A stretch of DNA of 64,000 bases from Chamaelirium japonicum. Lineage: Eukaryota; Streptophyta; Magnoliopsida; Liliales; Melanthiaceae. Positions within the stretch are counted from its first letter, which is position 1. Every line of letters starts with the position of its first letter. Below are positions 6,363-64,000 of the stretch, in pieces. A program made the translations under genes and the position numbers. The notes below the pieces were generated by a model. The model had not been told where the DNA came from. It searched no databases and saw only the letters and a list, made by a program, of their open reading frames with translations. Location: NCBI GenBank assembly GCA_947650365.1, contig OX393550.1, positions 118,434,874 through 118,498,873 on the forward strand, in the 5' to 3' direction.

Positions 6363-7430
6363 GGGGGCTCGCGAAAACAAGGAGGGAGGCTTTGGACGAC
6401 CAAAAACTCACCCATCACCACCGGACCTTTGCCATCACACCACCCTCTACCCCTTAGAACCCCTCTGAAAACCCTAAGCCTCCACATCCGTACCGTCATC
6501 GAAGCCACGACGTGAACGAGCCGAAGCGAAGAAAGCATCAAGTGAACAAGATCGAAGAAGACGGAATCTACGGCGCAATCTTCAAAGATGATCTGTACTT
6601 CGTTTCTTTTCATTTTTTCCCTTGATGTAACAAAACCCATGTCTAGCTAAACTGCATGCTAAGGCCGAGATGAAACCCTAGATCATAATAGATGTTAGTT
6701 TATTTTATGTGTTCTATGCTGAGCTTTTCATCGATAATATATGATTTAATTTCGGATTTGCTATGATGATTTAATAGTTCTCACATGGTATTGTCATGCA
6801 TGCCTTGTAGTTAACATCAGTCGTCTTGTTAATCAAAGCCCAATTTCATTGTATAATTAAAGCTTAGATCTATTGTGCTTAATCTTGACAATCGATGCTC
6901 TGCTATGTTAGCTTTGATCTATTGTGCTCTATTTAGACAATCGATGCCCTGCTTTATTACTCCATGCTTGAATTTAAATCATGCTTATGTCATTAATCTC
7001 GTATTAAAGCTTTAACGATCGCATCTCGAGGAAGCACGGGATTTGTTTCCCGCATGCTACTCGCATAAATTTAGAACACCATAATTTAACATAGCATCTA
7101 CGACGATCTAGCGGTGGATTCGACCGCCTTAGTATCTCATCCATATCCAAACTTCTACACTGCACCGCATTACCTTAGTTAATTTGCATGCTTTAATCCT
7201 GTTTATCTTATTTTTCTGTCACAATCTCATCAAATCAACTCAACAACATTGCTCATTAAGTAATTTAGGTTAAATAGTTAATAACCCTAGATTAGATAGT
7301 CTCCTCATTAGCAATCCCTGTGGGATCGACCTCGTAATACGTACCGCTCCTACAAAGCGATTCGTGCACTTGCGAGTTATAAATTAGATCAAATTAAACC
7401 CTTAATTTAGGATTAGTTTCGATCGCATCA

Positions 7431-22960: not shown

Positions 22961-24690
22961 CATCGCCTCGAATGAATATAATCGACAACTTAGATTGACC
23001 TGGATTGTAAGGAGCCTTTTTGTCCCGTTTTTGTTTCAAGCTTCCGACTCAAATGGGCGGAATCAAAGTCTTTGGTTGACCTGGGTTGCCAAGAGCATTT
23101 TATTGGACTTTAGCTTCGAGGGGCATAATCCATTTTACTTCTAGCATCCAACTTGAATGGGTTGAATCGAAGTCATTGGTTGACATGGATTGCTAGAAGC
23201 CTTTTCGTTGGTCTTTAACCTCGAGAAAGCGTATCTAATTTTGTTTCAAACTTCCGACTTGAATGGGTGGAATAAAAGTCTTTGGTTGACCTAGATTGTT
23301 AGGAGCCTTTTTATCGGACTTGTGCCTTGAAAAGGCGTAGCCGATGTTGCTTCGAGCTTCCGACTTGAACTGACAGAATCGAAGGCTTGTTTTGACTTGG
23401 GTTGTCAGGAGCCTTTTATCAGACTTTAGTTTTGAAAGGGTGTAGTCGATGTTGCTTCAAGCTTCCAACTTGAACTGGCAGAATTGAAGACTTAGTTTGA
23501 TCTGGGTTGCCATGAGCCTTTTTATTAGACTTTAGCCTTGAAAGGGCATATCTGATATTGCTTTGAGCTTCTGACTTGAACTGGCAGAATCAAAGGCTTA
23601 GTTTGTCCTAGATTGCCAGGAGCCTTTTTACCGAACTTTAGCCTTGAAAGGGCGTAGCTACTGTTGCTTCGAATTTTTGACTTGAACTGGCGAAATCGAA
23701 AGGTTAGTTTGACTTGAGTTGCTAAGAGCCTTTTTATCGGACTTTAGCCTTGAAGTTGTGTAGCTGATGTTGCTTCAAGCCCCTGACTTGAACTGGCAGA
23801 ATCAAAGGCTTAGTATGAACTTGGTTGCCAGGAGTCTTTTTATCAGACTTTAACCTTAAAAGGGCGTAACCGATGTTGCTTCGAGCTTCCGACTTGAATT
23901 GGTGGAATCAAAGGCTTGATTTGACTTGGGTTTCCAGGAGCCTTTTTATTGAACTTTAGCCTTGAAATGGTGTAGCTGATATTGCTTTAAGATTCCAACT
24001 TGAACTAGTAGAATCAATGGCTTAGTTTGACCTAGGTTGCCAGTATGACCCTTTTATCCAAATTTAGCCTTGAAAGGATATAGCCGATATTGCTTCGAGC
24101 TGCCGACTTGAACTGGCAAAATCGAAGGCTTAGTTTTACCTGGGTTACCAGGAGCTTTTTTATTGGACTTTAGCCTCGAGAGAGCATAACAGATTTTGCT
24201 TCGAGCTTTCGATTTGAACTGGCGAAATCAAAGGCTTAGTTTGACCTGGGTTGTCAGGAGTCTTATTATCGAACTTTAGCCTTGAAAGGGCATAATCGAT
24301 ATTGCTTCGAGCTTCTGACTTGAACTAGCGAAATCGAAGGCTTAGTTTGACCTGGGTTGCCATGAACCTTTTTATCGGACTCTAGCCTTGAAAGGGCATA
24401 GCCGATGTTGCTTCGAGCTTTCGACTTGAATTGGCAAAATCAAAAACTTAGTTTGACCTGGGTTATCAGGAACCTTTTTATCAAACTTTAGGCTTGAAAA
24501 GGCGTAGCTAATGTTTCTTCGAGCTTCCGATTTGAACTGGCATAATCGAAGGCTTAGTTTGACCTGGGTTGCTTGGAGTTCTTTTATCAGACTTTAGCCT
24601 TGAAATCGTATAGCCAATTTTGTTTCGAACTTCTGACTTGAATTGGTGGAATCGAAGTCTTGGAGTTAACTTGGGTTTCCAATAGCCTTT
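22960..24690. repeat. Tandem array of ~106-bp units, about 16 copies
   Basis: The word CGACTTGAACTGGCAGAATC or a variant recurs near 23046, 23146, 23254, 23361, 23467, 23572, 23679, 23784, 23890, 23996, 24103, 24210, 24316, 24422, 24526 and 24633. Lying just past the minus-strand Tat integrase end (24735-24876), it fits the variable 3' region of a Tat element. A lone unit is misplaced at 53985-54090. Confidence 0.9.
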
Positions 24691-24734: not shown

Positions 24735-24876
24735 TTGATGGTCAGCCTATAGGGACCTTTACTATCTCTTTACTCTATGACATATGGTCCCTCCCAAGAC
24801 GGAGAGAATTCACCGCTGGCAGCTTCCTTTGTGTTTGGGAAAATGGCTCTGAGTATCATGTCTCTTTTGTTGAATT
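24735..24876 (-). pseudogene. Tat G integrase C-terminal end (left half, split by copia C)
   Basis: The minus strand reads MILRAIFPNTKEAASGEF then SWEGPYVIE, closely matching the integrase end of Tat D (VLRAVFYNTKEHSSGKLAPN, WEGPYIVE). A stop follows the E. The matching upstream residues (KRAYDRR) are on the other side of copia C at 53914-53985, so C inserted within this codon run. Gag of the same element is at 54330-55295 and 63885-64000. The remainder of pol is not found between them. Confidence 0.85.
24872..24876. repeat. Left target-site duplication of copia C (imperfect)
   Basis: GAATT on the left against TAATT at 53914-53918 on the right: four of five bases match, plausible for an old insertion. 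The split integrase frame supports it. Confidence 0.6.
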
Positions 24877-26825
24877 TGTTGTAGCTCGTGTGTCCTGAGC
24901 GTGGATTTTCTGTATTAACATTAATAAAGATGACTTAGGTTATTGCTTTAATTAGAATACTACTTTGGTATATGTTAATACACATATAATAAAAGGACCC
25001 TAGGGAACACAGTAGGCCATTGAGACGCATGGTGGATCCATACTTGGGAGACCTAGTGGACCAGTTCTATGTAGACCTAGAACTAGTTCACAGCTTTGGT
25101 GATGTCGTTCGCTTCACCGAGAATAAGTTGTTGGCAGGTAGAGGATGTGGTGAAGTCTCCACCGCGAGAACATGGGATTCCCATTCACCTGACCAAGTAC
25201 GATGATCGTGTTGAACAAGAACCAAGATGGTGCATAGTTCAGTGATTCAAACATTGGTGCATAAACCGTCTTACTACTATAGATAATCTGTCCTTAACCC
25301 TAAGGGACCATGTACACTGGGCCAACCAGTTGAGTGGTGCTTTGATGTGCCAACGTGTGCGGATCTTTTATAGTCCAATATCACGGTACGTTGGGTTACC
25401 CGACTGGCGCTTGAGTGGCATGCAATCTCTATAGGTTATTCGACGTCCAGTGTTGGATGGGTGCGTTTTGATGAGTCAATCTGTCCACACAGTTAACCCA
25501 GGTCTGGTGGTTGTCAGTATGACTGACGATGTTCCGGATACTAGGCATAGCACCGGAAGGTGTGTGGTGTTATAGATGACAAGTCATCAAATCTTAGTTA
25601 GATGATCGATCGGGATCTGACGGTGCTCCCCAACGCCCGAGTCGTATCATGGCACCAGTAATAGGAGGGACTAAAAATTATCAGAGTATAGTAAAGAATA
25701 GGGTCACGAGGGAGTAACATAAGTTTAGGATCACTAGAGTTCAACTCGTGTCGCACTCTGGGTGGCTGCACGGGTTAATTGGATTAGGACTGATTAACGG
25801 AACTTTTGGTGTATCACCGGAACAGTTAATCAGGGATCCGATTGGAGCTAGAGATACTAAACCCTGAAGGTTTCACCCTATCGTTGTGTATAGAAATTGT
25901 TCCCCAACCTGGTTGGATACGTTGGATGCGAAGTAGCGCGATGGAGCGCAAGCCCAGAGCCTAAGAACCTAATTCACATATGTTAGGTGTCATAGGGATA
26001 TTTTGGTAAATACTGAAATATGACTCAGAACATATTGAATATCGATCCTAAAATGAGCGGAATAATTCCAGAAGCTCATAGGTACTGACGGAACTCGATT
26101 CCGAGTAGCACACCTCTCTCAATCTCTCCTACAGTGTTTCACTTTTCGTGAAGGACGTTTTCGTCCAAGCTTCACGATAGCTAAATGGAATCCCTAAAAA
26201 TCGCCCCCCCCCCCTCTCATCCCAATCACTAGGGGGCCGGCCCTATCTTGCGTATGTGAGTTGGGGCCGGCCCTATAAAGTGATTGGAGGGAGAGGGGGC
26301 CGGCCCTAGGGTGCTCCCCTCTCCAGAAAACCAAACCCCTCTCCATTCTCCCCTTTTTATGGTTTCGGCCAAGGAAGAAAAAGGAAGAAGAAGGAGGAAG
26401 GAAGGAGAAGGAAGAAGAGAGAAAGAGAAAGAGGAGATCTCGCGGCTCGCCATTATCTTTGCAACGAATTCCTATATCAGCTTGTAGTCCTTGCACTCAG
26501 ATATAGGACTTCGAGGATTCCTCCATTCGCAAAGGACAAGGTGCCATCCGACAACTTCCCTTGTGATTCACGTGCGGTTTATCATCGTTCCATTCTCTTC
26601 GGACCATAGATCCATAAGGTATGATGATTCTAAACACCTAACTAGATGCATGCATGTCTTCTGTAGATCGTAGTATGCCTCTAGGGTGTCCGCACATATG
26701 CTAAGATCATAGATTTGCATATAGATTGATTTGTAGAATTAATTGTAATTAAACATACACCGTAAGATCTTCGGATCTACCTTTTGCTTCTGCTGCGACT
26801 CTGATAATAGGATCCAATTCCAACA
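24877..26825 (+). repeat. 5' LTR of copia C (1949 bp)
   Basis: TGTTGTAGCTCG to GATCCAATTCCAACA, directly followed by the copia primer site. The inverted LTRs of copia E and the partial copy at 53145-53913 are homologous. Confidence 0.9.
26274..26280 (+). promoter_or_regulatory. TATA box candidate in copia C LTR
   Basis: TATAAAG in CCCTATAAAGTG. It is conserved in the partial plus LTR near 53367. Confidence 0.4.
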
Positions 26826-32099: not shown

Positions 32100-34020
32100 T
32101 GTTGGAATTGGATCCTATTATCAGAGTCACAGTGAAAGCAAAAAATAGATCCGAAGATCTTACGATGTATGTTTCATTACAATTAATTCTACAATACAAT
32201 CTACATGTAAATCTTTGATCTTAGAATATGTGCGGACACCTTAGAGGCATACTACGATCTACGAAAGCATGCATGTATCTAGTTAGGTATTTAGAATCAT
32301 CATACCTTGTGAATCTATGATCCGAAGAGAATGGAACGATGCTGAACCGCAAATGAATCACAAGGGAAGCTGTTGAATGACACCTTGTCCTTTGCGAATG
32401 GAGGAATCCTTGAAGTCCTATCTCTGAGTGCAAGGACTACGAGCCGACGGAGGAATTCGTTGCGAAGACGACGATAAGACACGAGATCTCCTCCTTTTCT
32501 TTCTCTCTTCTTCCTTCACGTTCCTTTCTCCTTTTTCTTCCTTCTTCTTCCTCTTTCTTCCTTGGCCGAAACCACAAAGAGGGAGAGAAGAGAGGGAGGG
32601 TCGAGTTTTTTCTAGAGAGGGGAGAGCTAGGGCTGGTCCCCTAATGCTCTACGCAAGCTAGGGACAGCCCCATATGGATTAGGATGAGGGGTGCTTAGTT
32701 TTAGGGTTTCAGAATACCTATCGTGAAGCATGGACGAAAACGGCCTTCACGAAAAGTGAAACACTATAAGAGAGATTGAGTGAGGTACGCTATTCAGAAT
32801 CGAGTTCCGTCAGTGCCTATGAGTTCCTGAAATTATTCTGCTCATTTTAAGATCTATATTCAATATGTTCTGAGCCATATTTCAGTATTTACCAAAATAC
32901 CCCTATAGCCCCTCACACATGTGAATTAGGTTCTTAGGTTCTGGGCTTGCGCTCCATCGCGCTACTTTGCATCCAACGTATCCAACCAGGTCAGGGAACA
33001 ATTCCTATACGCAATAACAGGGTGGAACCTTTAGGGTTCAGGATCTCTAGCTCCAATCGAATCCCTGATTAACTGTTCCGGTGATACACCGAAAGTTCCA
33101 TTAATCAGTCCTAATCCGATTAACCCGCGTAGCCACCCAGAGTGCGATGCGAGTTGAACTCTAGTGATCCTAAACTTATGTTACTCCCTCGTAACCCTGT
33201 TCTCTACTATACTCTGATAATCCTTAGTCCCTCCTATTATTGGTGTCATGATACGACTCGGGTGGTGGGGAGCACCGTCAGATCCCGATCGATCATTTGA
33301 CTAGGATTTGATGACTTGCCATCTATAACACCACATACCTTTTGGTGCTATGCCTAACATCCGGAACGTCGTCAGTCATACTGACAACCACCTAGCCTGG
33401 GTTAACTATATGGACAGATTGACTCATCAAAACACACCTATCCAATACTGGACGTCGGATAACCTGTAGGGATTGCATGCCACTCAAGCGCCAATCGGGT
33501 AACCCAACATACCATGGTATTGGACTATGGAAGGTCCGCACACGTTGGTACATCAAAGCACCACTCAACTGGTTAGCCCAGTGTACATGGTTCCTCAGGT
33601 TAAGGACAGATTATTTATAGTAGTAAGATGGTTCATGCACCAGTATCTGAATCACTGAACTATGCACCGTCTTGGTTCCTGTTCAACAAGATCATCGTGC
33701 TTGGTCAGGTGAATGGGAATCCCATGTTCCCGTAGTGAAGACTTCACCACATCATCTACTTGCCAACAGCTTATTCTCGGTGAAGCGACCAGCATCACCA
33801 AAGCTGTAAACTAGTTCTAGGTCTACACAAAACTGGTCCACTGGGTCTCCCAAGCATGGATCCACCATGCGTCTCAGTGGCCTACTGTGTTCCCTAGGAT
33901 CCTTTTATTATATGTGTATTAATATATACCAAAGTAGTATTCTAATTAAAGCAACAACCAAAGTCATCTTTATTAATGTTAATACAGAAAATCCACGCTC
34001 AGGACATACGAGCTACAATA
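32100..34020 (-). repeat. 3' LTR of copia E (1921 bp, inverted)
   Basis: TGTTGGAATTGG at the left through CGAGCTACAATA at the right, next to the polypurine tract. The expected terminal CAACA reads CAATA, a one-base decay. Confidence 0.88.
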
Positions 34021-34031
34021 ATCTCCCACTT
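34021..34031 (-). promoter_or_regulatory. Polypurine tract of copia E
   Basis: The minus strand reads AAGTGGGAGAT directly before the LTR. It lies a few bases beyond the pol stop at 34035. Confidence 0.85.
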
Positions 34032-37235: not shown

Positions 37236-40200
37236 ATGGCGAGGACGGAGCATCAGGGGCAACCAGAAGGAAGTAACACTCGACAATCTCATCCTGAGAC
37301 TCGTTCAATGAGTCAAAGGCTAAATTTCGGACAGCCCCTTGCTGTCCCCGATGTGGGGGTTCACTCAGGAAGTGGGAGATCAGTCGACCGACCGATCGCC
37401 CCTCCTCCTCAATCAATTGGGCAGACTGCTCTTCCTTCTGCTGCGAACCCTCCATCGACTTATCAAATTTTGGCGGTCGACTTTCAACTGCTTCAACTGG
37501 CTAAGCAGAATGCCGATCTCACTGCTGAAATAGATGCTCTCAAGAAAGCAGCCTCTGAAGTCGGGATCGCTCTTTCGATTCCCTCGACCAACGAGAGAGT
37601 CGATCTTCCACGACAATCAATCCATTTCGAGCAACGGAGGTCAATAGGCACTGCTGCCCTTGAAAGGATTCGTCGTGACCCAACTCCCTCTGCTGCCCCA
37701 TGGAAGCAGAGTGTTTGGGATCGCCTCGATGACGAGTCCTCCCAATCTTCTTCTGGTCGCAACTGCGACAGGAAGGCACCTTCAAAGCCTGACATATCAA
37801 GGAGACGCCAGATGAAGGGGGCTCCCTCGAAGGGTAGAGGTTCTCCTTCCATTCCACTTCAGTATGGGCTCGGATCGGATCTTCGCCACCGACTCCAACC
37901 TACTTACACTCAGAGGCCTGAACAAGACCTCTCGATCTTGCCTCTCGATCTACATCCAAATCGGGGGCATGGTCGTAGAGATGGGTACTCCTCTGCCGGA
38001 CCTCTCCATCGGAGCTTATTCGAGTCAACATTTCCAAGGGGGTGGAGAACTCCCACTCTCCCCAAATTCAACTGCATCAGAGGAGATCCAACCCTCCATG
38101 TACTCGCCTTCAAGCAAGCTCTGACGTCGCACGAAGAAGAGAACAACGTACTCTGCCGCACCTTCGTGGGGAGTCTCGACGAACCATCCCTCGATTGGTA
38201 CCATAATATCCGAGCTGGGTCCATCACCCAGTTCAGTGTTTTGGCCAATCTCTTCGTGCAGCATTATCAGCTGAACTTGAAGCCGAAAAAGAAGCTCGAC
38301 TCCCTCTACCGGTTGAGGATGGGTGCCGATGAGAGTCTCCGAAGCTTTACAAGGAGATTCCGCAACGAGCACGCCGCCCTCTCCGGAAGACATCTGGATG
38401 ATGAAGCCATCATGTTGGCTTTCCAGAACGCTCTTCGCTTCGACCTACACATCTATAATGACTTCATCCGTAATCCACCTCCTTCCCTGGGTGCAATGTT
38501 TGATCGAATCCAGAGAGAGATTGAGGTTGAGGACGATCAAGTCACTCGAAAAGGACGAGAGTCGAAGCGAAGGCCAGCTGAGAAAAAAGCTCCGAAGTAT
38601 GCTTCCAAAGCTCACAACGCTGAGGCAGCAACCCCCCCTGCCAATAAACGGTCGAAAAACGACGGACGACGATCCCCAACGAAAACCACTTTCACTGAGT
38701 GGAATTTACCTGTCGAACAGATCCTCGACCGCATTCAACACGAAGAATTCCTTCGAAGGCCCAATCCTCTTCAGCCAAACACCAAATTCATAGCTGACAA
38801 AACGGTCTATTGCGACTTCCACCGAAGTCACGGCCATTCCACCGATCGGTGCTATCGGCTAAAATTTCATCTCGAAGACTTGCTGCGAGAGGGCCATCTC
38901 CAAGAGTTCACCAAAGAAGGACAAGATCAACGCCGACCCTCTGCGAAGGGAAAAGAAGCTTACTGGGTCCATCAAATCTCTTCCAACCGATCTCCTCTTA
39001 TTGTGAGTGCCAACGTCTTCGGTATTCATGGATCATTGCATAATCAATCGGTGACCGGGAAGGAAGTTGACGGGCAAATTCGACGTATCTTTCACGTTCG
39101 CTCTTCTGCAAACAAAGAGGACACCTGGATCGAGAAACCTGTTGAAGGTTTGGCTTGGCCCTCCATCGTCTTCAATGACACCGACCTTCAAGGAGTTCAT
39201 ACTCCACATCGTGACCCCTTGGTCTTAAAGCTCCTCATCGATGGAAGCACTGTCAATCGAATCCTCATCGACACCGGAAGCTCCATCGACATTATGTTCT
39301 CAGACTGCTTCAAACGTCTGGGACATAAATACTCTAGCCTCAACGTTGTCCTAACGGTGATCACAGGCTTCAACGGTGAGCAAAGCATCACCATGGGAGA
39401 ATCATGATTCACACTCGATCTCAGCCGAGAAACTCGAGTCTCGGTGAGATTTGCTATTGTCGAAGGAACGTCCAGCTATAACGCCATTCTCGGGCGACCT
39501 TTCCTCCACCAGATTAATGCCATCTCCTCTTCTTACCATCAACTCCTCAAGTTTGCAACGGGAGAAGGCATTGTCTGCATTCGAGGTGATCTACAAGCCG
39601 GTCGTTCTTGCGAAGCCGCTGCTGCGAAAATAAATCGCAAGATCAATATTGCTCCTCCAAAGCGACCACTAGATGAAGCCGGCCCTTCTTCCAAATAGCA
39701 ATCAAAGGAGATTCCACTGACCGAGCCCCCACCAATCGAGTGGGAGGCCTCACTATCAATCGAAGAAATCATTCCAATCAATATCGGCAGTGGAGATCTC
39801 CCTCAACAAACATTCATCGGTATCGGTCTCAGCGACACAGAAGCGCGAGATATGGTATCCTTCCTTCAGTCCAACATCGACGTCTTCGCGTGGTGCTTAA
39901 TTCGAAGATATGCCTGGGATCAATCCAGATGACGATTGTCATCGCCTAGAAATCAAAGAAGAAGTGAAGCCTATCAAGCAAAAGCCATGCACAATCCGAC
40001 CAGAACTACAAATTGCCGTTCAAGAAGAGATCAGTAAGCTACTCGCAACAGGCTTCATCCGTGAAGTAGAGTATCCTACTTGGATCTCCAATATAGTTGC
40101 TGTCCCAAAGAAGAACGGGAAGGTCAGAGTGTACATTGACTTCACCAACCTCAACAAAGCTTGTCCCAAAGATCCATTCCCCATGCCAAGAATAAATAGA

Positions 40201-47040: not shown

Positions 47041-47061
47041 CTCGGCAGGTTCGAAACTTAA

Positions 47062-47965
47062 CCTCGACCGGTTGAATTTAATCGATCGGTCAGACTTGAC
47101 CGATCGGACTAATTCATCCGATCGGTCGATTTTCTACTGGATCAGGCAAAAAACTTGACTTTTTGCCTGATCCCGTCAACCTCGACCGGTTGAATTTAAC
47201 CGATCGGTCAAATTCACCCGATCGGTCGATTTTCTACTGGATCGGGCAAAAAACTTGGTTTTTTGCCCGATCCCGTCAACCTCGACTGGTTGAATTTAAC
47301 CGATCGGTCAGACTTGACCGATCGGTCAAATTCACCCGATCGGACGATTTTCTACTGGATCAGGCAAAAAACTTGGCTTTTTGCCCGATCCCACCAACCT
47401 CGACCAGTTGAATTTAACCGATCGGTCAGACTTGACCGATCGGTCCATTTTCTACTGGATCAGGCAAAAAACTTAGCTTTTTTCCCGATCCCGCCAACCT
47501 CGATCGGTTGAATTTAACCGATCGGTCAGACTTGACCGATCGGTCAAATTCACCCGATCGATCTATTTTCTACTGGATCAGGCAAAAAACTTGGCTTTTT
47601 GCCCGATCCCGCCAACCTCGACCGGTTGAATTTAACCAATCGGTCAGACTTAACCGATCGGCCAAATTCAACCGATCGGTCGATTTTTTACTGGATCGGT
47701 CAAAAAACTATGTTTTCTGACCGATCACTTCAACCTCGACTGGTTGAATTTAACCGATCGGTCAGACTTGACCGATCGGTCAAATTCAACCGATCGGTCG
47801 ATTTACTACTGAATCGGTTAGAAAATTATGTTTTCTGACCGATCACTTCAACCTTGACCGGTTGAATTTGACCGATCGGTCAAATTCAACCGATCGATCA
47901 AAATTAACCGATCGGTCAATTTTGACCGATCAGTCTGAAACTGACCAATCAGCCTTATTTTTCGA
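47062..47965 (+). repeat. Tandem array in Tat D, eight units of 118 or 100 bp
   Basis: CCTCGACCGGTTGAATTT or a variant starts units at about 47062, 47180, 47280, 47398, 47497, 47616, 47732 and 47850. Short units lack one or another 18-bp block of the CGATCGGTCAGACTTGAC type. The first five or six units contain GATC(A/G)GGCAAAAAAC then TTTTTTGCCCGATC-like arms forming a long hairpin. CCGATCGG palindromes fill the rest. Confidence 0.92.
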
Positions 47966-52209: not shown

Positions 52210-53146
52210 TGTTGGAATTGGATCCTATTATCAGAGTCGCAGCAGAAGCAAAAGATAGATCCGAAGATCTTATGGTGTATGTTTCATTACAATTACTTCT
52301 ACAAAACAATCTACATGCAAATCTATGATCTTAGCATATGTGTGGATACCCTAGAGGTATACTACACTCTACGGAAGCATGCATGCATCTAGTTAGGTGT
52401 TTAGAATCATCATACCTTATGGATCTATGATCCAAATAGAATGGAACGATGATGAACTACACATGAATTGCAAGAGAAGCTATCGGATAACACCTTGTCC
52501 TTTGTGAATGGAGGAATCCTCGAAGTCCTATCTCTGAGTGCAAGGACTACGAGCCGATGGAGGAATTCGTTGCGAAGATAATGGCAAGCCGTGAGATCTC
52601 CTCCTTCTCTTTCTTTCTTCTTCTTTCTCCTTCCTTCCTCCCTCTTCTTCCTTCTTCTTCCTCTTTCTTCCTTGGCCGAAACCACAAAGAGGGAGAGAGG
52701 AAAGGGGGTCGGGTTTTTCTGGAGAGGGCAGAGCTAGGGCCGGCCCCTCCCTCTCTATTTTTCATATAGGGCCGGTCCCCTACTGCTCTACGCAAGCTAG
52801 GGCCAGCCCCATATGGATTAGGATGAGGGGGGTCGGTTTTAGGGTTTTAGAATACCTATCGTGAAACCTGGGCAAAAACGCCCTTCACAAAAAATGAAAC
52901 ACTATAAGAGAGATTGAGTGAGGTGCGTTATTCGGAATCGAGTTCCGTTAGCGCCTATAAGCTTCTGAAATTATTCTGTTGTTTTTAAGATCCATAGTCA
53001 ATATGTTCTGTGCCATATTTTAGTATTCACCAAAATACCCCTATGTCCCCTAACACATGTGAATTAGGTTCTTAGGCTCCGGGCTTATGCTCCATCGTGC
53101 TACTTCGCATCCAACGTATCCAACCAGGTCAGGGAACAATTCCTAT
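52210..53146 (-). repeat. 5' LTR of copia E, U5-side 937 bp (inverted, truncated)
   Basis: Matches 32100 to about 33010. It breaks off after CAATTCCTAT, where the intact LTR continues ACGCAATAAC. Confidence 0.9.
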
Positions 53147-53913
53147 CTTAAAATAAGCAAAATAATTCCAGGAGCTCATAGGCACTGACAGAACTCGATT
53201 CCGAGTAGCACACCTCACGCAATCTCTCTTACAATGTTTCACTTTTCGTGAAGGGTGTTTTCATCCAGGCTTCACGATAGCTAAGTAGAAACCCTAACCC
53301 CCCCCCCCCTCATCCTAATCACTAGGGGGCTGACCCTAGCTTGCGTATGTGAGTTGGGGTCGGCCCTATAAAGGGATTGGAGTGAGAGGGGGCCGGCCCT
53401 AGGGTGCTCCCCTCTCCAGAAAACCCGACCCCCTCTCTCTTCTCCCCTTTTTGTGGTTTTGGCCAAGAAAGAAAGAGGAAGAATAAGGAGGAAGGAAGGA
53501 GAAGGAATAAGAGAGAATGAGGAGATCTCGTGGCTCGTCGTCGTCTTCGGAACGAATTCCTCCGTTGACTCGTAGTCCTTGCACTCAGAGATAGGACTTC
53601 GAGGATTCCTCCATTCGCAAAGGACAAGGTGCCATCCGACAGCTTCCCTTGTGATTCACGTGAGGTTCATCATCGTTCCGTTCTTTTCGGATCATAGATC
53701 CACAAGATATAATGATTCTAAACACCTAACTAGATGCATACATGTCTTCCATAGATCGTAGTATGCCTCTAGGGTGTCCGCACATATGCTAAGATCATAG
53801 ATTTGCATGTAGATTGTTTTGTAGAATTAATTGTAATGAAACATACACCGTAAGATCTTCGGATCTTTCTTTTGCTTCTGCTGCGACTCTGATAATAGGA
53901 TCCAATTCCAACA
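53145..53913 (+). repeat. 3' LTR of copia C, U5-side 769 bp
   Basis: Matches 26043-26825 from ATC(C/T)TAAAAT onward to CCAATTCCAACA. It is joined head to head to the inverted copia E LTR with about two bases of overlap. Confidence 0.9.
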
Positions 53914-53985
53914 TAATTATCTTCTTATGTCTCTTCTGTCATATGCCCTCTTGATTTTTATTTATAATTGGTCACATGAGCTACT
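53914..53985 (-). pseudogene. Tat G integrase fragment (right half)
   Basis: The minus strand gives VTNYK, then after a one-base loss IKRAYDRRDIRR, matching VAKYQQKIKRAYDQKVYKR of Tat D. It continues across copia C at 24876. Confidence 0.7.
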
Positions 53986-54090
53986 GCCTTTGAAAGGGCA
54001 TAACCGATTTTGCTTCGAGCTTCCGATTTGAACGGGTAGAATCAAAGTCTTTGGCTGATCTGGATTGCGAGGAGCCTTTAGGTGCCTTAA
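53985..54090. repeat. Lone, misplaced unit of the 106-bp array
   Basis: CTTTGAAAGGGCATAACCGATT through GATCTGGATTGCGAGGAGCC matches a unit of 22960-24690. It lies upstream of the Tat G integrase end in element sense, opposite to the main array, which points to a rearrangement in G. Confidence 0.7.
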
Positions 54091-54329
54091 ACAGGCAGAA
54101 TAGAATTTCCAGAGACTTCAACTATGAGAAAAAAATATATTTTATTGATAACCAAAACTCACGGTTATAATTTTTTAGAGGTTGCCCGACAGACGTTATA
54201 AATCCGCCTTTTTAGATGCTTATCCACTTTACAGAAGGGTGCTTGCTGATACTGGTATACATGACCACCGTTTGCTTTTGCATCCACGTATCATGTTGAC
54301 ACCATCCTTTACTGATACTGTTTTTCCTT
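54091..54329. other. Junction sequence between the array unit and Tat G gag
   Basis: No recognised domain. RT and RNase H of G would belong between gag and integrase but are absent here. Confidence 0.4.
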
Positions 54330-55295
54330 CTCCTAGCCTGGTTTCTTATTATAGAGGTAGCCCTCGAGTCGCCCTTCTTGGACTAGGTCTTCGATATGGT
54401 CCTTCAGTCGCCAGCAGGTTAAAGTCAGGTGCCCGTGGCTACAATGGAATTCATAGTAGACCATAGTGTCCTTGGTCTACTCCGAGTTTGGAGGAAGACG
54501 TTGCAGCCAATTGTAGAATGGCTCATTCTGTATATAGGCGAATATATCTTCGATCAAGGTGTTCATCTTGGTGAACACTCTCTGCTCCCTTGGAGCTTTC
54601 CTTTTCCCTGCCGGAGGGGCTTTCAGTTCTTTATTCCATCTCTTGGCTAGCCCCTTCTGGTCAGACGTAGCGTTGGCATGCTTCTTATAGCGTGCATCCT
54701 TTGAGGCGTCATCTGCCTTCTTGTGTCAAGAGTTGCGAGGTTTGCATGGATTGCGCAACCTTCTGGCCCGCTAATTGTTCTCTACCTCCATCACCTATTG
54801 TACATGTTTGAATATCGCCTCCAAGGAGCTGGGAGGATGCCGGATGAAGTAGGTATAGACGTGGAGCTCTAGCCAGATGGTATTCTGGAATGTCAGCATG
54901 ATGGCCTCCTCATTTTAGGATCGACCAGTGAGTTCAGAATTCTCATTTTGAAACCTTGTTTTGAAGCTCTTTAGGGACTCGTCGGAGCCCATCTTTAGCC
55001 GGTAAAGAGTGTCTAACTTCTTTTCCGGCTCTAGGTTCAACCGATAGTGATCTATGAAGAGTTCCGCCAACTCCTCAAATGTGGCTATCATTCCGGTAGG
55101 CAGAGTGTAGTACCAGTCGAGGGTAGATCCCTCGAGGCTTTCTTTGAATATACGGCAAATAGCATGGTTCTCGTACTCGTATGGCATCATGGCTTGCTTG
55201 AAGGCCAGGATATGGAGAGCATGGTCTTCCTTAATGCAATTAAACTTTGGCAGGCTCAGTGTTCACCACCCCACAGGAAATGAAGTTGCGAGTAC
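54330..55295 (-). pseudogene. Tat G gag, C-terminal two thirds
   Basis: From 55295 leftward: TSFPVGW, stop, TLSLPKFNCIKEDHALHIL, then MMPYEYENHAICRIF, LYRLKMGSDESLKSF, FIRHPPSSLEAIF and the knuckle region (EFHCSHGHLTLTC, first Cys lost), then LKDHIEDLVQEGRLEGYL near 54340. It parallels the Tat D gag closely, so G is a Tat element of the same group. Stops, for example at 54914, inactivate it. The upstream part continues at 63885 beyond copy B. Confidence 0.9.
55291..55295. repeat. Left target-site duplication of family I copy B
   Basis: AGTAC, repeated exactly at 63885-63889. Removing 55296-63889 restores the gag frame SAGPLHPE|VLATSFPVGW. Confidence 0.93.
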
Positions 55296-55577
55296 TGATG
55301 AGCGTCACTTTGCTACGTAAAACTTTCATAATACACGTAAACTGCATGAGTTTCTTTGCACCATGATATAGTAGACTCTCATACAAACCCGACGGCATAT
55401 GGGTTCGCTCTCATACACATCATGCATGATAGTTATCTTGTCTGATAATCCAAATTATTTCTTTCATCGATAATCGCATATTGGAATCTTATGGACGTCA
55501 TTTCATGTGTGATTTTCAGGGAATTGATCCGGTTGTCGATGCAGTCAGCTCAAGGACTTCATGACCAAGCCGTGGAT
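55296..55577 (+). repeat. Inverted U3 fragment (282 bp) at the left end of copy B
   Basis: Begins TGATGAGCGTC like a family I LTR. It lacks the next ~43 bp by deletion between two AGCGTC words, then matches the copy B U3 almost exactly to GATGCAGTCAG. After that it follows the copy A version (CTCAAGGACTTCATGACCAA) to GTGGAT. Confidence 0.85.
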
Positions 55578-55585
55578 CAAAAACT
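55578..55585 (-). other. Retained LTR-to-primer-site spacer at the copy B U5 end
   Basis: The minus strand reads AGTTTTTG immediately past the U5 end CATCA. This equals the six-base spacer plus TG that follows the 5' LTR at 61504-61511. A normal 3' LTR would be followed by flanking DNA. Confidence 0.75.
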
Positions 55586-57956
55586 TGATGCGATCTAAAC
55601 TAATCCTAAATTAAGGGCTAATTTGATCTAAATTATAACTCGCAAGTGCACGAATCGCTTTGTAGGAGCGGTACGTATTACGAGGTCGATCCCACAGGGA
55701 TTGCTAATGAGGAAACTATCTAATCTAAGGTTATTAATCTATCTACCTAAGTTGCTTAATGAGCAATATTGTTGATTTGATTCGATGAGATTGTGAAAAA
55801 GTAAACTAATCAAGATTAAAGCATGCAGATTAACTAATTAAGGTAGTGCGGTGCAGTGTGGAAGTTCAGATATGGATGCGATATTCTAAGCCCTAGAATC
55901 CGCACAAGTAGCAATCTAAATTGTATTTTTATATGATTTCCAGGATTCTCACGGAGATTCGAAGTCAATCTATCCCCGCGGAAGGTATTCAATAAGAAGC
56001 ACAATTAGGGTGAACTAATGTAGCGATCTTTCTCGCTTCATAGGAATAAGATGGAATACTTCTCTGTAAAATTCGTAGTGATAACAAAAGCCAAGACTAT
56101 GTAATAATTCCCCGTAAAACTTTCCGTAATAACGAAGAATAAAACTATGAAATCGACTTCTGTAAAACCCTGATAATAACGGAGAATAAATCGGACTTAC
56201 TGTATGCAATTCCTATCAAGGTTTCATGAGATAAATAAGATCACAATATTTCATTGAACGAACGGAAATATAGAAATAACATAAAAACAGAGTTTAGATC
56301 TGACTACAGGGTTTCATCCAGGTCTTAGAATATGGTGGTTAGCCACGGATGGCCATGCGAGCGCTGATGGCGGATGCTCCTTTGAAGATGACGAACCCGG
56401 CGATGATTGCGTAACCGACGAAGATGGTACGGGTTGTAGATGAACGATGGTAGTGTATGGTCGTGAGAGCTAGGGTTTAGTCGTAGGTGGAAGGTGGTGG
56501 CCGGTGGATGTGGAAGATGATGGTTTGTATTCGGTGGTAGATGGCAGAGGTTCTTCGGATCGGTCCTAAGTTCCGGGGGTAATGAAGATGGAGATGATGA
56601 TAGGTTCGGGTATGTGGTTAGATGGCCCCTCCCCTCGGTTCGTCGGTTGGGGTATTATATAGAGAGAGGTCCGGACGTATGAGGTGATAGCCCGAGAGGG
56701 GACGTGCATGGCTGGGTTTCTCAGTTTAGAGAGATAGAGAGGGATATCTAGAGAGATATAGAGAGAGAAAATCAAGGAAAGAGAGATAAGATCGGTGCAG
56801 AAGAGAGAGAAGATCGGTGCAGACCGATCGGGTCGAGGATGAGAGAGGTGTGCGGTTGGGTTAGAGAGAGAAACGTTCGCCATCTTTGTAGGAGGAGAGA
56901 GAGAGAAGTTCGGGTAGAGAGAGATGTGCGGTGGATTGGTTTTAGGAAAGAGAGAGTTATTCGGCTGGGGGGGTACTCGGGCTGCTGGGTTCGGTGATTT
57001 AGTGGGAAAGAGAGGGAGAGCTTTGATGGGATCCGGTTACAGCTGGGCCTGCATGCCATCGGACGGCTGTGATGCTGGGAAGGAGACGTGGATCCGGAGC
57101 TGAGCTGCTGGGGTTTTAAAAGGGTGAAAATCTGGGCCGCTGCATGCATGGGTTTTTAAGGATCGGGTGGCTGTGATGGTAGGACTGCGGACGGCTGGAA
57201 TTAAGTGGGAATGAGAGGTGGGTGCAATGGGGTTTTGATCAGGAACTGCGGATAGAGCTCGGGTGCCAGGGACGGCTGCGTACATGTGTGCATGGGTGCA
57301 TTATGGCGAGTTGTTTGAAGACACGGACGGCTGCGATTGCATCGGCGAGAGATGAATGCATGGGTTTTTATGTTGGGACCGAACGGGATTCAAGGGCTGC
57401 ATGCATAGGTTTTTAAATCGGATGGTTGGGGTTTGATGGAATGACGTGCATGGGTAATGCATGCATGGGATTGTTGGATCGGACGACGGTGATTAATGAG
57501 ATGAAAGGCTGGGTGCAACGGGGTCACGTGGAAAGCTTGGTCACCCACTTATCATCATCCGCATTCATCATCGGTCCTTCAGAATTGTTCGCATACGGCC
57601 TGCACAACTTCCATCGCATTGCCGTGAGAATATCCATTGCTTGATCATACCGCTCTTGAACTGACTGCATCGACAACCGGATCAATTCCCTGAAAATCAC
57701 ACATGAAATGACGTCCATAAGATTCCAATATGCGATTATCGATGAAAGAAATAATTTGGATTATCAGACAAGATAACTATCATGCATGATGTGTATGAGA
57801 GCGAACCCATATGCCGTCGGGTTCGTATGAGAGTTTACTATATCATGGTGCAAAGAAACTCATGCAGTTTACGTGTATTATGAAAGTTTTACGTAGCAAA
57901 GTGACGCTATGTGCATGATAAAGACAGGATAATTCGCACCAAATGGACGCTCATCA
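55586..57956 (-). repeat. 3' LTR of copy B (2371 bp)
   Basis: TGATGCGATC (inverted U5) to GCTCATCA (inverted U3). About nine substitutions and one 2-bp indel against 61512-63884. It contains GA-rich tracts (56690-56960) and repeated CATGCATGGGTTTTTA / CGGACGGCTG modules (57060-57490). Confidence 0.95.
56653..56661 (-). promoter_or_regulatory. TATA box candidate, copy B 3' LTR
   Basis: The minus strand reads TATATAATA. It is identical at 62579-62587 in the 5' LTR. Confidence 0.5.
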
Positions 57957-57969
57957 CACCCCCAAACTT
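57957..57969 (-). promoter_or_regulatory. 3' polypurine tract of copy B
   Basis: The minus strand reads AAGTTTGGGGGTG right before the LTR TGATGAGC. Confidence 0.9.
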
Positions 57970-59560
57970 AAATCTTGCTCGTCCTCGAGTAAGAAAAGAA
58001 AAATAAACAAAGTAAATGACAAAATAAAAACTCCTAACTCACTTTCGCAGGAATCGCGATTGCACTTAGCATGTGCAACAAGCCATTAAACCCCTAGGTT
58101 ACCCCAGTGGACGAGTTTTGTCTCGTGAAGGTTTGCAGTGAATCTACCCACAAAATTCAAACTTTTTTTTTTTTGTTTTTTTTTTTGAAAATATAAATAA
58201 GAAATAAGAAAATTCGGTTTCGTAGAATAATTAAAAAGTACTCAAAAATAGAATTTCTAAGGCACAAGACTCACAAGGTATCTAGCCCAAGCTTCGGCTT
58301 TCGAAGTAAGCACTTTAGGTTCTAACTATTAGTTTCCCATTAGAAAAGATCAAGGTCAACTATGCTCGAGTGCACGGTGCTGTCTGGGCAAAACACAACT
58401 GGGGGTTTGGTTCTCTACATTCATATCATTCTAACAGTCTCCTAGAACGGTCAAAGTCGACCTTAGAACCTGAGTCAAAACCAGCTAATCTAGACAGGCT
58501 AGTGAGAGTTGTGGATATTCACCTTAATACCTTTCGGCTTTATATGTGATATTCCAGTTTCCCCACATTATTTATAGCGACGGCTTTCACACTATTTTCC
58601 TTTTTCTTTTTCTTTCCTTTTTTTTTTTTTTTCGGTCTCATTTTTTTTCTGGATCTAATTATATATCCCTTCCTAACTTGTACCATGCTAGCTGCACTCT
58701 ATGCCCATGACACGCTGTCAACGCTCTCATGAGTTAGGTAGCCATCCTCATGTTGCCTTTATATTTGATTCACTCTGCATCCATAGGATCATTCTCATAA
58801 CCCTATCGACCAGGCTTCACTCATACTAGGGCATACAGGTTAAGACTTTTATATAATTAGGTCCTAGACCATGCTAATAGGTAGCCCTTTTCGCTATACC
58901 TTAGAATTCACTGGTCGCTTTTCTAATGATATATTTTTTTCAGACCAAGTGAACCAGATCCGCATGGTTCATCAGGACTCTAGTTAACTATTAGGCCGAT
59001 ATGAAAGCTTTGAATCTAGACCCTAGAGGTGTAAGCCAGATGTGAAGTGAAAAGTCAAGTCTAGTTTGTTTTGACAATCTCTAAAAGGTTACTAAGGGTC
59101 AGAACCATATTAGACATACTTTTTCTAGCTACTCCTTGGACTCTATACCTTGATTATCAAGTACCTTATAGTCCTATTCGAGTACGATAAAATTATATTA
59201 CAAAACCTGAAATAAAGATAAAATATATATAGATATATATAAATTTTTTTTTTTCGAAAAGAACGAAAGGGACGGCAAAAGTAATACGATAAGAAAATAA
59301 AATAAGAAAAAAAAAATAAAAACATGCAAATACAAATTCCTATAGATTTCTATACGGACGCTGTAGTTTTAGTAGGGGACTACAGACTAGACACACATAC
59401 ATGAAGATGTATGTGCCGAGCTGTCCCACTACAGCGTGAGTTGATGCATTATTATTAAAAAAACAATTTTTTTTTTTGGTTTTTTTTTTTTTAATTCAAA
59501 ATAAGAATAAAAAAAATTTGTAGAAATTAGATGCATACAGGATTTTACAAAAATGTATAT
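57970..59560 (-). other. Non-coding interior of copy B
   Basis: Collinear with 2670-4273 of copy A. It holds the conserved hairpin at 59358-59437 and homopolymer A/T runs. Confidence 0.75.
59358..59437 (-). other. Conserved hairpin, copy B
   Basis: The outer 10-bp stem ACGCTGTAGT/ACTACAGCGT and the GGGAC/GTCCC stem are unchanged from copy A. The apical stem is CACATACAT/ATGTATGTG. Confidence 0.65.
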
Positions 59561-59575
59561 CACACCCCCAAACTT
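59561..59575 (-). promoter_or_regulatory. Internal polypurine tract, copy B
   Basis: The minus strand reads AAGTTTGGGGGTGTG, followed by ATATACAT. Same place as 2655-2669 in copy A. Confidence 0.7.
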
Positions 59576-59800
59576 AAATTAGACATTGTCCTCAATGTAT
59601 GAATTATATATGCTCAGGAATGAGATAATAGCATTATATGAAAGCATTTTTGAAGGACATATATATAAAATGAAAGTATGAAGTTTTAAGGATGGATAAT
59701 ACCTTAAAAGTGCTTTGTATGATAGCTTCCTGCAAAATGTCAGTGCCATAAAGAAAAAAAAAACAAAGCGACTAAACAGACTAATAAAGAGGAGCAGATG

Positions 59801-61372
59801 CTAATAAATAAAGAAAAAAATAACTGCTATAATACAAATATATTTTTTAGCAGATGGAATTTTTAAAAAGAAAAGAGAGTAGTCATCAATGGAGAAATTA
59901 TATTCTATAGTATATTTCGGGCATGTTTCTACATGACTATCCATTCTTCTATTAGGATTCATCCTATATTGTTCTTCATGATTTTTCTTTTCAAATTGAA
60001 CAATATAAGATTCATTATTATACTCCATATTCTGCCATGTATCATCTATATTATCTTTGAAAAGTTTGCAAAATTGAATTTTCTGATTTTGGATGAATTT
60101 AGAAAAAATTAAATCAGAAAATATATATTCTTCACCCAAATGTGTATGTTGAAACTCAGATGGCAGAATTTGTAGATCACTGTATGATTTTTCGATAATG
60201 GATGGGTGATCAATCATGATATTTTTTATTTCAAGATTCATTGATAGAGCATTGGCCTCTTTAGCAAATATATCATCATCAATGTCATAAGGAAGATCAT
60301 GAGTGTTATCAAATATAATATTGGTCAGATCGTAGTTCGGGTAACCATAATTTTTTAAGCATGCCTCCAATGGATCATTAAAAGATGATTGAGGAATCTT
60401 GCTCTCCATAAGATTGTCGATCATATTCATTTTATAGATTTTATTATCATTATTAACATTTAAACTGGATGTGAGAACATTACTTTCTTTAATAATCTCA
60501 TCATCATCGTTATAGGGGGGAGCATAGGCTTCTTCATCAATTATACTATCTATAGTGTTATCATTGATGACATCAATATTGGATGGGAGATCATTAGTAT
60601 CCTTAAAAATCATATCCATATTAATGTCATCAATATTGCTCGGACAATCTTCCAAAGGATTAAGAAAATCAGATTTGACAAGTTCATCTTCTAAAGGGAT
60701 GTCCATCTTGGTCTCCTCATAAGCTCCATTATCTATTGAGACGCTAATTATGTTTTCATAATCCTCATAATCTTCATCGGAGTTAGACTCAGGTTGAAGT
60801 TGATCTCGAAGTATTGCTTCCTTAATAACATTCAAATGTGATTCAATTCTTTCGAAAGCGTTTATTTGCTCTTGTATATTGCTTTGATAGTTCTGCATAA
60901 GCTGATTGCGCATAGACATTTGTAGTATATCTTCAAGAGTCTCCTCATTTAGTGGCATATAATCATAAGGCTCTTGAAAATTAGTAGCAGATGATTCATT
61001 TTTCCAACTATAGTCTTGATGATTTTGCCAATAAGAATTTTGATAATATTGCCTACTTGGATCTTGAAAATTTTGCCATCTAGAATCATGATAATTTTGC
61101 CATCTAGGATCATGTGTGTCATGGCATGATGAATTATATTGTATATGGCCATGTAAACTCCTAATCGGTGAATTTCTTTCAGGATATTCTATTTCAGTTG
61201 AAAAGTTTATAGAATCCTGATGTCTGATGGTTCTTGTTATGTTCATATACTCCTTTAGGGTCATTTCTTGGGGTGAATGTGAGTTGGTCATTACTGTTGA
61301 AAATGGATCTTGATATTTTGTTGACCTTGTAAGATTCATATATTCTTCTAGGGTCATTGTTTGGTTAGTCAT
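59801..61372 (-). CDS. Intact gag-like protein of family I (523 aa)
   Basis: An uninterrupted frame starting 115 bases after the primer site; copy A has the same start. Residues 5-23 and 36-54 are two copies of a segment with MTL(E/K)EYMN(L/I)TR. Residues 88-127 are five 8-residue repeats, such as DPRWQNYH, DSRWQNFQ and NSYWQNHQ. Residues about 145-195 are Gln/Leu-rich and could coil. From about 200 to 400 the chain is strongly acidic and Asn-rich. I see no zinc knuckle, DTG protease, RT or integrase motif, and no domain I can name. The last residues (IIAVIFFFIY) may reflect read-through past the true end. Position and the nucleocapsid-like length suggest a gag role. This is inference only. 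Confidence 0.8.
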   Translation of the reverse strand: MTNQTMTLEEYMNLTRSTKYQDPFSTVMTNSHSPQEMTLKEYMNITRTIRHQDSINFSTEIEYPERNSPIRSLHGHIQYNSSCHDTHDPRWQNYHDSRWQNFQDPSRQYYQNSYWQNHQDYSWKNESSATNFQEPYDYMPLNEETLEDILQMSMRNQLMQNYQSNIQEQINAFERIESHLNVIKEAILRDQLQPESNSDEDYEDYENIISVSIDNGAYEETKMDIPLEDELVKSDFLNPLEDCPSNIDDINMDMIFKDTNDLPSNIDVINDNTIDSIIDEEAYAPPYNDDDEIIKESNVLTSSLNVNNDNKIYKMNMIDNLMESKIPQSSFNDPLEACLKNYGYPNYDLTNIIFDNTHDLPYDIDDDIFAKEANALSMNLEIKNIMIDHPSIIEKSYSDLQILPSEFQHTHLGEEYIFSDLIFSKFIQNQKIQFCKLFKDNIDDTWQNMEYNNESYIVQFEKKNHEEQYRMNPNRRMDSHVETCPKYTIEYNFSIDDYSLFFLKIPSAKKYICIIAVIFFFIY

Positions 61373-61487
61373 TTTGGTTAAAGATTAAGAAACTGCTATA
61401 CTCTAAAGATAAAATTAAACTAACAAAAACAAATAAAACTAACTAAGGCAAGTAAGGAATAACCTAAATTCGAAAGCTTCGTTGCAA

Positions 61488-61505
61488 TCCCCGGCAACGG
61501 CGCCA
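61488..61505 (-). promoter_or_regulatory. tRNA primer-binding site of copy B
   Basis: The minus strand reads TGGCGCCGTTGCCGGGGA, six bases (AGTTTT) from the LTR end at 61512. Confidence 0.88.
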
Positions 61506-61511
61506 AAAACT

Positions 61512-63884
61512 TGATGCGATCTAAACTAATCCTAAATTAAGGGCTAATTTGATCTAAATTATAACTCGCAAGTGCACGAATCGCTTTGTAGGAGCGGTAC
61601 GTATTACGAGGTCGATCCCACAGGGATTGCTAATGAGGAAACTATCTAATCTAAGGTTATTAATCTATCTACCTAAGTTGCTTAATGAGCAATATTGTTG
61701 ATTTGATTCGATGAGATTGTGAAAAAGTAAACTAATCAAGATTAAAGCATGCAGATTAACTAATTAAGGTAGTGCGGTGCAGTGTGGAAGTTCAGATATG
61801 GATGCGATATTCTAAGCCCTAGAATCCGCACAAGTAGCAATCTAAATTGTATTTTTATATGATTTCCAGGATTCTCACGGAGATTCGAAGTCAATCTATC
61901 CCCGCGGAAGGTATTCAATAAGAAGCACAATTAGGGTGAACTAATGTAGCGATCTTTCTCGCTTCATAGGAATAAGATGGAATACTTCTCCGTAAAATTC
62001 GTAGTGATAACAAAAGCCAAGACTATGTAATAATTCCCCGTAAAACTTTCCGTAATAACGAAGAATAAAACTATGAAATCGACTTCTGTAAAACCCTGAT
62101 AATAACGGAGAATAAATCGGACTTACTGTATGCAATTCCTATCAAGGTTTCATGAGATAAATAAGATCACAATATTTCATTGAACGAACGGAAATATAGA
62201 AATAACATAAAAACAGAGTTTAGATCTGACTACAGGGCTTCATCCAGGTCTTAGAATAGGGTGGTTAGCCTCGGATGGCCATGCGAGCGCTGATGGCGGA
62301 TGCTCCTTTGAAGATGACGAACCCGGCGATGATTGCGTAACCGACGAAGATGGTACGGGTTGTAGATGAACGATGGTAGTGTATGGTCGTGAGAGCTAGG
62401 GTTTAGTCGTAGGTGGAAGGTGGTGGCCGGTGGATGTGGAAGATGATGGTTTGTATTCGGTGGTAGATGGCAGAGGTTCTTCGGATCGGTCCTAAGTTCC
62501 GGGGGTAATGAAGATGGAGATGATGATAGGTTCGGGTATGTGGTTAGATGGCCCCTCCCCTCGGTTCGTCGGTTGGGGTATTATATAGAGAGAGGTCCGG
62601 ACGTATGAGGTGATAGCCCGAGAGGGGACGTGCATGGCTGGGTTTCTCAGTTTAGAGAGATAGAGAGGGATATCTAGAGAGATATAGAGAGAGAAAATCA
62701 AGGAAAGAGAGATAAGATCGGTGCAGAAGAGAGAGAAGATCGGTGCAGACCGATCGGGTCGAGGATGAGAGAGGTGTGCGGTTGGGTTAGAGAGAGAAAC
62801 GTTCGCCATCTTTGTAGGAGAAGAGAGAGAGAAGTTCGGGTAGAGAGAGATGTGCGGTGGATTGGTTTTAGGAAAGAGAGAGAGTTATTCGGCTGGGGGG
62901 GTACTCGGGCTGCTGGGTTCGGTGATTTAGTGGGAAAGAGAGGGAGAGCTTTGATGGGATCCGGTTACAGCTGGGCCTGCATGCCATCGGACGGCTGTGA
63001 TGCTGGGAAGGAGACGTGGATCCGGAGCTGAGCTGCTGGGGTTTTAAAAGGGAGAAAATCTGGGCCGCTGCATGCATGGGTTTTTAAGGATCGGGTGGCT
63101 GTGATGGTAGGACTGCGGACGGCTGGAATTAAGTGGGAATGAGAGGTGGGTGCAATGGGGTTTTGATCAGGAACTGCGGATAGAGCTCGGGTGCCAGGGA
63201 CGGCTGCGTACATGTGTGCATGGGTGCATTATGGCGAGTTGTTTGAAGACACGGACGGCTGCGATTGCATCGGCGAGAGATGAATGCATGGGTTTTTATG
63301 TTGGGACCGAACGGGATTCAAGGGCTGCATGCATAGGTTTTTAAATCGGATGGTTGGGGTTTGATGGAATGACGTGCATGGGTAATGCATGCATGGGATT
63401 GTTGGATCGGACGACGGTGATTAATGAGATGAAAGGCTGGGTGCAACGGGGTCACGTGGAAAGCTTGGTCACCCACTTATCATCATCCGCATTCATCATC
63501 GGTCCTTCAGAATTGTTCGCATACGGCCTGCACAACTTCCATCGCATTGCCGTGAGAATATCCATTGCTTGATCATACCGCTCTTGAACTGACTGCATCG
63601 ACAACCGGATCAATTCCCTGAAAATCACACATGAAATGACGTCCATAAGATTCCAATATGCGATTATCGATGAAAGAAATAATTTGGATTATCAGACAAG
63701 ATAACTATCATGCATGATGTGTATGAGAGCGAACCCATATGCCGTCGGGTTCGTATGAGAGTCTACTATATCATGGTGCAAAGAAACTCATGCAGTTTAC
63801 GTGTATTATGAAAGTTTTACGTAGCAAAGTGACGCTATGTGCATGATAAAGAAAGGATAATTCACACCAAATGGACGCTCATCA
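61512..63884 (-). repeat. 5' LTR of copy B (2373 bp)
   Basis: Ends GCTCATCA at 63884 against the AGTAC duplication. Near-identical to 55586-57956. TATA candidate at 62579-62587. Confidence 0.95.
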
Positions 63885-64000
63885 AGTACCTCGGGATGCA
63901 GGGGTCCTGCCGAAGTGATTATGAGCCTGCGGTCTTGATAGCGATGTCCCATGTCAGTGGTCTGCCTTCGTCAGTTGACTAACTCATAAGCATATGCGGC
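63885..64000 (-). pseudogene. Tat G gag, upstream part, cut by the window end
   Basis: The minus strand from 64000 reads through one stop to RYQDRRLIITSAGPLHPE, matching the RRDGYSSAGPLH region of Tat D gag. It continues in frame at 55295 once copy B and one AGTAC are removed. Confidence 0.85.

Follow-up and report, generated by a model that had tools for sequence, protein, structure and literature searches.

Insertions of long terminal repeat (LTR) retroelements that depart from the standard pattern have been described in plants and in retroviruses. In the Triticeae, rice and maize, template switching has produced LTR-retrotransposon complexes that each carry one 5-bp target-site duplication (Sabot and Schulman 2007, PMC1950507). 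According to PMC2797772, 3' junctions of human immunodeficiency virus type 1 (HIV-1) in Mre11-deficient cells keep 2, 4, 11 or 15 nucleotides of the primer-binding site (PBS). Two-LTR circle junctions can carry unprocessed U5, PBS or transfer RNA (tRNA) sequence, and HIV RNase H leaves one tRNA base, as stated in PMC5618025. In Sireviruses, PMC2829016 describes intervening bases that are added at the outer ends of the linear complementary DNA (cDNA) and removed by integrase. Here we describe a retrotransposon insertion in Chamaelirium japonicum that has a U3 start at both outer ends and an unprocessed U5 end inside. It lies in a stretch of 64,000 nucleotides (contig OX393550.1, G000:C2:118434874-118498873; hereafter the window), and its main component, a full element with two LTRs, is called copy B.

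The insertion shares with the complexes of Sabot and Schulman a single 5-bp duplication around the whole composite, which was hence probably joined before integration. Those complexes, however, consist of two direct elements that share a third LTR and have normal outer LTRs, whereas the window unit is inverted, contains an unprocessed end and runs from U3 to U3; it does not have three direct LTRs and two internal regions. Two-LTR circles (PMC5618025) display the same type of cDNA-end error before integration, but they join U5 to U3 in direct order, whereas the window join is inverted and integrated and suggests two retained tRNA bases.

The unit occupies 55296-63884 and interrupts the gag of another retrotransposon. 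A normal insertion has one U3 and one U5 outer end between copies of a 5-bp target duplication. The window unit has the duplication, AGTAC, but both of its outer ends are U3, the right terminus on the minus strand being the same as the left terminus, TGATGAGCGTC, on the plus strand. The U3-U3 unit and its duplication are confirmed as a real observation. Its parts, with strand, are as follows.

55291-55295, no strand: target-site duplication AGTAC, left copy (read from the sequence; empty-site join)
55296-55577, plus: whole inverted U3 piece, 282 bp (read from the sequence)
55296-55306, plus: U3 terminus TGATGAGCGTC of the U3 piece; 43 bp (AGCGTC repeat) are absent right after it
55307-55548, plus: B-like body of the U3 piece, 242 bp aligned to the copy B LTRs
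55549-55577, plus: tail of the U3 piece, 29 bp, from another subfamily (aligned to B; exact-string search of the genome)
55578-55585, minus: AGTTTTTG, the spacer AGTTTT plus TG (first two PBS bases), past the U5 end; the plus strand reads CAAAAACT
55586-57956, minus: copy B 3' LTR (LTR alignment)
57957-61505, minus: copy B internal region, purine-tract side at 57957, PBS at 61484-61505
61504-61511, minus: native AGTTTTTG of copy B, spacer AGTTTT at 61506-61511 and the first TG of the PBS at 61504-61505
61512-63884, minus: copy B 5' LTR, whose U3 start forms the unit's outer end on the right (sequence and alignment)
63885-63889, no strand: target-site duplication AGTAC, right copy (sequence; empty-site join)
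54171-55295, minus: gag of the host element, decayed, with in-frame stops; interrupted by the unit and resuming at 63890

The outer ends behave as true integration ends because the gag reading is continuous without a gap once the unit is taken out. When the flanks were joined through a single AGTAC, tblastn aligned the host gag across the junction, without a gap there, to the gag open reading frame (ORF) at 37236-39407 (142 of 323 residues identical, E value 1e-85, 27 gap positions away from the junction and several in-frame stops). Only about 19 aligned gag residues, 9 of them identical by hand count, lie to the right of the junction, and the right flank past the window holds one more match to the same gag ORF (residues 73-120, E value 7e-9, in a different frame). 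By arithmetic, a 5-bp duplication would match by chance about once in 1000 cases.

The inner join is the most informative part of the unit. The 5' LTR of copy B closes with the U5 end CATCA, after which come AGTTTT and the PBS, TGGCGCCGTTGCCGGGGATTGC; AGTTTTTG therefore consists of the spacer together with two bases from the start of the PBS. The same AGTTTTTG stands after CATCA at the inner join and leads directly into the inverted U3 piece; six spacer and two PBS bases are thus kept, and the U3 piece shares no microhomology with the U5 end. These readings bear out three claims of the original prediction, made from this stretch alone: that the unit lies between perfect AGTAC copies with a U3 start at each end, that its removal restores gag and makes the outer ends genuine (the restored frame still holding in-frame stops), and that spacer plus TG stands past the inner U5 end, where it is identical to copy B's own spacer and PBS start.

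We searched the 1.52-Gb genome assembly (3253 contigs) for exact strings and for U5 ends of one type, so that point-changed copies, and other subfamilies such as that of copy A with its spacer AGGTTT, fall outside these searches. The 32-mer CAGCTCAAGGACTTCATGACCAAGCCGTGGAT, which starts 3 bases before the tail of the U3 piece, occurs at 182 places. After GGAT, all 30 of the donor-type loci that were read continue with A(T or C)TCTC, the first base being A and never C, and it is therefore unlikely, as judged from these sequences, that the CA at the inner join came from the U3 donor.

Copy B itself is a well-formed element. Its direct LTRs begin with TGATG and end with CATCA (TG..CA termini), and they are nearly identical, with 9 differences in 2371 aligned bases, which makes the copy young. 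The PBS follows the 5' LTR, and a purine-rich tract, AAGTTTGGGGGTG, precedes the 3' LTR. A Pfam scan of the longest ORF only (59801-61372, 523 amino acids) returned no family, and copy B is for that reason probably non-autonomous. We take it to resemble the Ty3-type plant LTR retrotransposons primed by tRNA-Asp, of the Athila/Tat kind; PBS, purine tract, TG..CA termini and 5-bp duplication are shared with that type, whereas the longest ORF of copy B is without a Pfam domain. The repeat content and the tRNA-Asp-type primer site are what would be expected of plant DNA. Two near-identical stretches resembling a purine tract, CACCCCCAAACTTAAAT on the plus strand, lie at 57957-57975, beside the 3' LTR, and at about 59560-59580, some 1.6 kb further inward.

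The 282-bp U3 piece is a mosaic. Just past its terminus it is without the 43 bp that both copy B and copy A have between two AGCGTC repeats, and this deleted start, as an exact 18-mer, has a single place in the genome. Against the copy B 5' LTR the body shows a single mismatch, a G-to-A change at a CpG; against the 3' LTR it shows two. The tail differs from copy B at 9 of 29 positions and matches another abundant subfamily. The junction of body and tail, an exact 29-mer found at one place, falls in, or on the edge of, the shared stretch ATGCAGTCAG. An exact-string search for a donor copy found no second deleted start and no second body-tail junction. The original prediction had assigned the U3 fragment to a different family member, which holds for the last 29 bp but not for the 242-bp body, which nearly matches copy B. 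Of the three junctions of the piece, two fall at shared sequence (the 6-bp AGCGTC repeat and ATGCAGTCAG), as reverse-transcriptase template switching would give, and the mosaic tilts the mechanism towards such switching over a simple ligation of two finished cDNAs.

The original prediction also proposed looking elsewhere in the genome for U3-U3 termini and for U5 ends followed by AGTTTTTG, and both were found. The former is a unit at G000:C9:13219538-13224965 (L097, L098, L099), in which two LTRs stand tail to tail through AGTTTT with their U3 starts outermost, at 13219538 and 13224965, and with CAAAG at both flanks as a 5-bp duplication. One arm carries the U5 end plus AGTTTT, and the opposite, inverted LTR is without its last six bases. 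The arms differ at 56 of 2691 aligned bases with 6 gap events, so the C9 unit is a nearly complete LTR palindrome without an internal region. We propose a class of U3-U3 composite insertions, defined by an inverted unprocessed-U5 join, two U3 outer ends and a 5-bp duplication, to which the window and C9 units belong. Searching the genome for one exact form of inverted U5-U5 join returned only the C9 unit, and the class therefore looks rare. In the open-licence literature we recognised no report of a U3-U3 insertion with a normal duplication, which is weak evidence of absence. The U3-U3 insertion adds a new form to the aberrant integrations known for LTR retroelements.

The second search, for U5 plus AGTTTTTG without the PBS base G next, gave 14 places: nine with a changed PBS, one unrelated (L041) and four extensions, of which the window unit is one. 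The other three (L055, L057 and L059/L060) are two-LTR elements with located U3 ends whose AGTTTTTG past U5 abuts non-element DNA, and none has a 5-bp duplication. Their LTRs differ at 1 of 2872, 54 of 1580 and 22 of 2367 bases; these unequal values point to events of different ages. L055 (G000:C3:59404000-59413900) is a very young, full-length copy, with one LTR difference in 2872, AGTTTTTG at U5 and no target duplication. L057 (G000:C7:24110800-24120700; 391-422 and 7062-7095) combines an unprocessed U5 end with a target duplication of 23-24 bp that has one mismatch. Aberrant retroviral integrations with retained PBS bases are reportedly also seen in U5 mutants of Rous sarcoma virus, in work attributed to Oh et al. 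in 2006, and end processing of Tnt1 is said to have been treated by Feuerbach et al. in 1997. The three copies resemble the aberrant integrations of HIV-1 and murine leukaemia virus in Mre11-deficient cells, where, as described in PMC2797772, U5 is joined to host DNA with its unprocessed bases and at least two PBS bases; the window and C9 units, by contrast with those abnormal joins, have a normal 5-bp duplication by way of a second U3 end.

Other extension lengths provide a comparison for the retained TG. U5 ends with AGTTTT and no PBS base (+0) stand at three places, two of them independent, since L095 and L096 read alike over the parts shown and L097 is the C9 unit. L095 and L096 (G000:C1:65121136 and 65220433) show the same join of U5 plus AGTTTT to non-element DNA about 99 kb apart on opposite strands; the pair is perhaps an inverted duplication. 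One-base extensions (+1) have five candidate places, two of which are a point-changed PBS, leaving at most three. Candidate three-base extensions (+3) number 17, as judged from the matched strings themselves; all read TGGT, and they look like PBS copies decayed at CpG. By hand arithmetic, random bases after AGTTTT would give TG plus a base other than G about 5% of the time. At most 9 cases come into question, of which 4 show it; leaving out the window unit, the figures are at most 8 and 3. The counts favour TG as part of the cDNA end, although the cases are few and several are without both ends located. The TG at the window join would then derive from the primer tRNA.

Relatives served as controls for normal integration. 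Fourteen pairs were fetched, of which seven were resolved at both termini, whereas in the other seven no U5 end was found in the fetched piece. In six of the seven resolved controls a 5-bp duplication abuts the U3 start on one side and the CA of the U5 end on the other. An apparent lack of duplication in L081/L082 came from a spurious internal U5 match, and this pair is not counted among the resolved controls.

These observations suggest a composite linear cDNA whose unprocessed U5 end had received a second U3 end as a cap by the time of integration, so that integrase worked on two U3 ends; we give this a probability of about 0.82. The U5 end of the copy B cDNA would have kept the spacer and two tRNA-copied bases (AGTTTTTG), primer removal being incomplete and 3' processing absent, and such an end would have been unusable by integrase. 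It would then have been extended by, or joined to, the inverted U3 piece, probably before integration, so that the molecule now ended in the terminus of the piece. Integrase could next have processed the two U3 termini (TGATGAGCG... on either side) and joined them into the gag of another retrotransposon, with the 5-bp duplication as the result, while in three other copies the unprocessed U5 end would have been joined to other DNA without one. The same outline, of two cDNAs joined inverted before integration with integrase acting on two U3 ends, had been predicted originally and gains support from the AGTTTTTG copies and the C9 unit. Within it, template switching by reverse transcriptase among co-packaged templates seems a more likely source of the added U3 than host end joining, and the mosaic U3 piece gives it a slight edge in the window unit.

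The closest competitor is a version of the same account, in which host non-homologous end joining ligated two finished cDNAs, one of which had a break 325 bp in from its U3 end. The original prediction had named this route as well as template switching. End joining fits the inner join itself, which has no microhomology and keeps the unprocessed end, and it fits the C9 unit, with AGTTTT on one arm and the last six LTR bases gone from the other; a review states that Ty1 two-LTR circles require ligase IV (PMC12786077). Ligation nevertheless leaves unexplained a chimeric U3 piece with two further junctions that are unique as exact strings, and we allot it a minority share of the odds of the composite-cDNA account, contained in them and not additional. 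Much further from favour stands repair after integration, in which copy B would have inserted normally (AGTAC followed directly by TGATGCGATC...) and a later break at the left end would have been filled from U3 and 5' LTR/PBS sequences. The U3 and U5 termini have TGATG in common, and filler of this origin is expected to be patchy, like the mosaic, with a join free of microhomology. But the filler would have had to reproduce all 11 bases of the U3 start precisely where the duplication lies, and to break off no more than two bases from where the cDNA naturally ends, and the C9 unit repeats the architecture with its own 5-bp duplication, which two random repairs are unlikely to give. We consider this reading improbable.

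An artefact of assembly, that is, a collapsed or chimeric join inside a repeat family, is less probable still. The region is rich in repeats and the evidence comes from the assembly alone, but the junctions of the U3 piece are unique there, the right flank contains a further gag match, the three other U5 extensions and the second U3-U3 insertion are on other contigs, and a chimera would need a perfect 5-bp duplication by chance. Least probable of all is nesting, in which the U3 piece would stem from an older element or a solo LTR and copy B would have arrived later. Nesting does occur locally, copy B itself sitting in the gag of another element, but no duplication brackets copy B by itself (AAACT versus AGTAC), the sole one enclosing the whole unit, and we rejected it. 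Autointegration was likewise set aside, as it should yield circles rather than U3-U3 linear molecules.

Several points weigh against the composite-cDNA account or its details. All of the evidence comes from one genome assembly. The inner join, being free of microhomology, suits end joining no less than template switching; the loss of the 43 bp may postdate the insertion; and a mosaic donor copy might exist beyond this assembly. Regarding the retained TG, the L057 join has one base in common with its target, so its extension may be +1 or +2, and the last extension bases in L055 and L059/L060 could be host DNA. For the remaining +1 candidates (L089, L092 and L093) the other end was not found; L093 lies within a nest, and its 801-base flanking piece (L094) contains no LTR match. 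The match of the copy B PBS to tRNA-Asp is presumed. Finally, one of the seven resolved controls, L075/L076 (G000:C3:36377370 and 36385000), has no 5-bp duplication; its left flank may contain purine-tract bases.

Elsewhere in the window, a large imperfect inverted repeat spans 52210-53913, with 77-95% identity over several blocks, and similar stretches lie at 24876-26825 and 32100-34021. Tandem arrays occupy 23025-24690 and 47060-47923, with units of roughly 106 and 118 bp (from alignment offsets), and a piece of the first recurs at 53985-54079.

Genomic copies usually display processed cDNA ends only, whereas these insertions keep an unprocessed end and record its fate, and so preserve, as fossils do, how the primer was removed, how 3' ends were processed and which ends the integrase chose. 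They may also bear on silencing. A 2024 study of EVD in Arabidopsis (PMC11624286) sought LTR hairpins as the first source of silencing small RNAs; short reads gave one antisense nested insertion and no close pair of LTRs in opposite orientation, within a search limited by insert size. The C9 unit is a close inverted LTR pair of this kind, formed before integration if our account holds. For the family as a whole we propose, tentatively and with less than even confidence, that a failed U5 end can be capped with a second U3 by inverted template switching, that integrase takes U3-U3 as well as U3-U5 ends, that inverted-LTR loci and thereby candidates for silencing hairpins arise in one step, and that RNase H often leaves two tRNA bases. 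If true, this would be a one-step route to stable inverted-LTR loci, candidates for the LTR hairpins that have been proposed to start the transcriptional silencing of retrotransposons.

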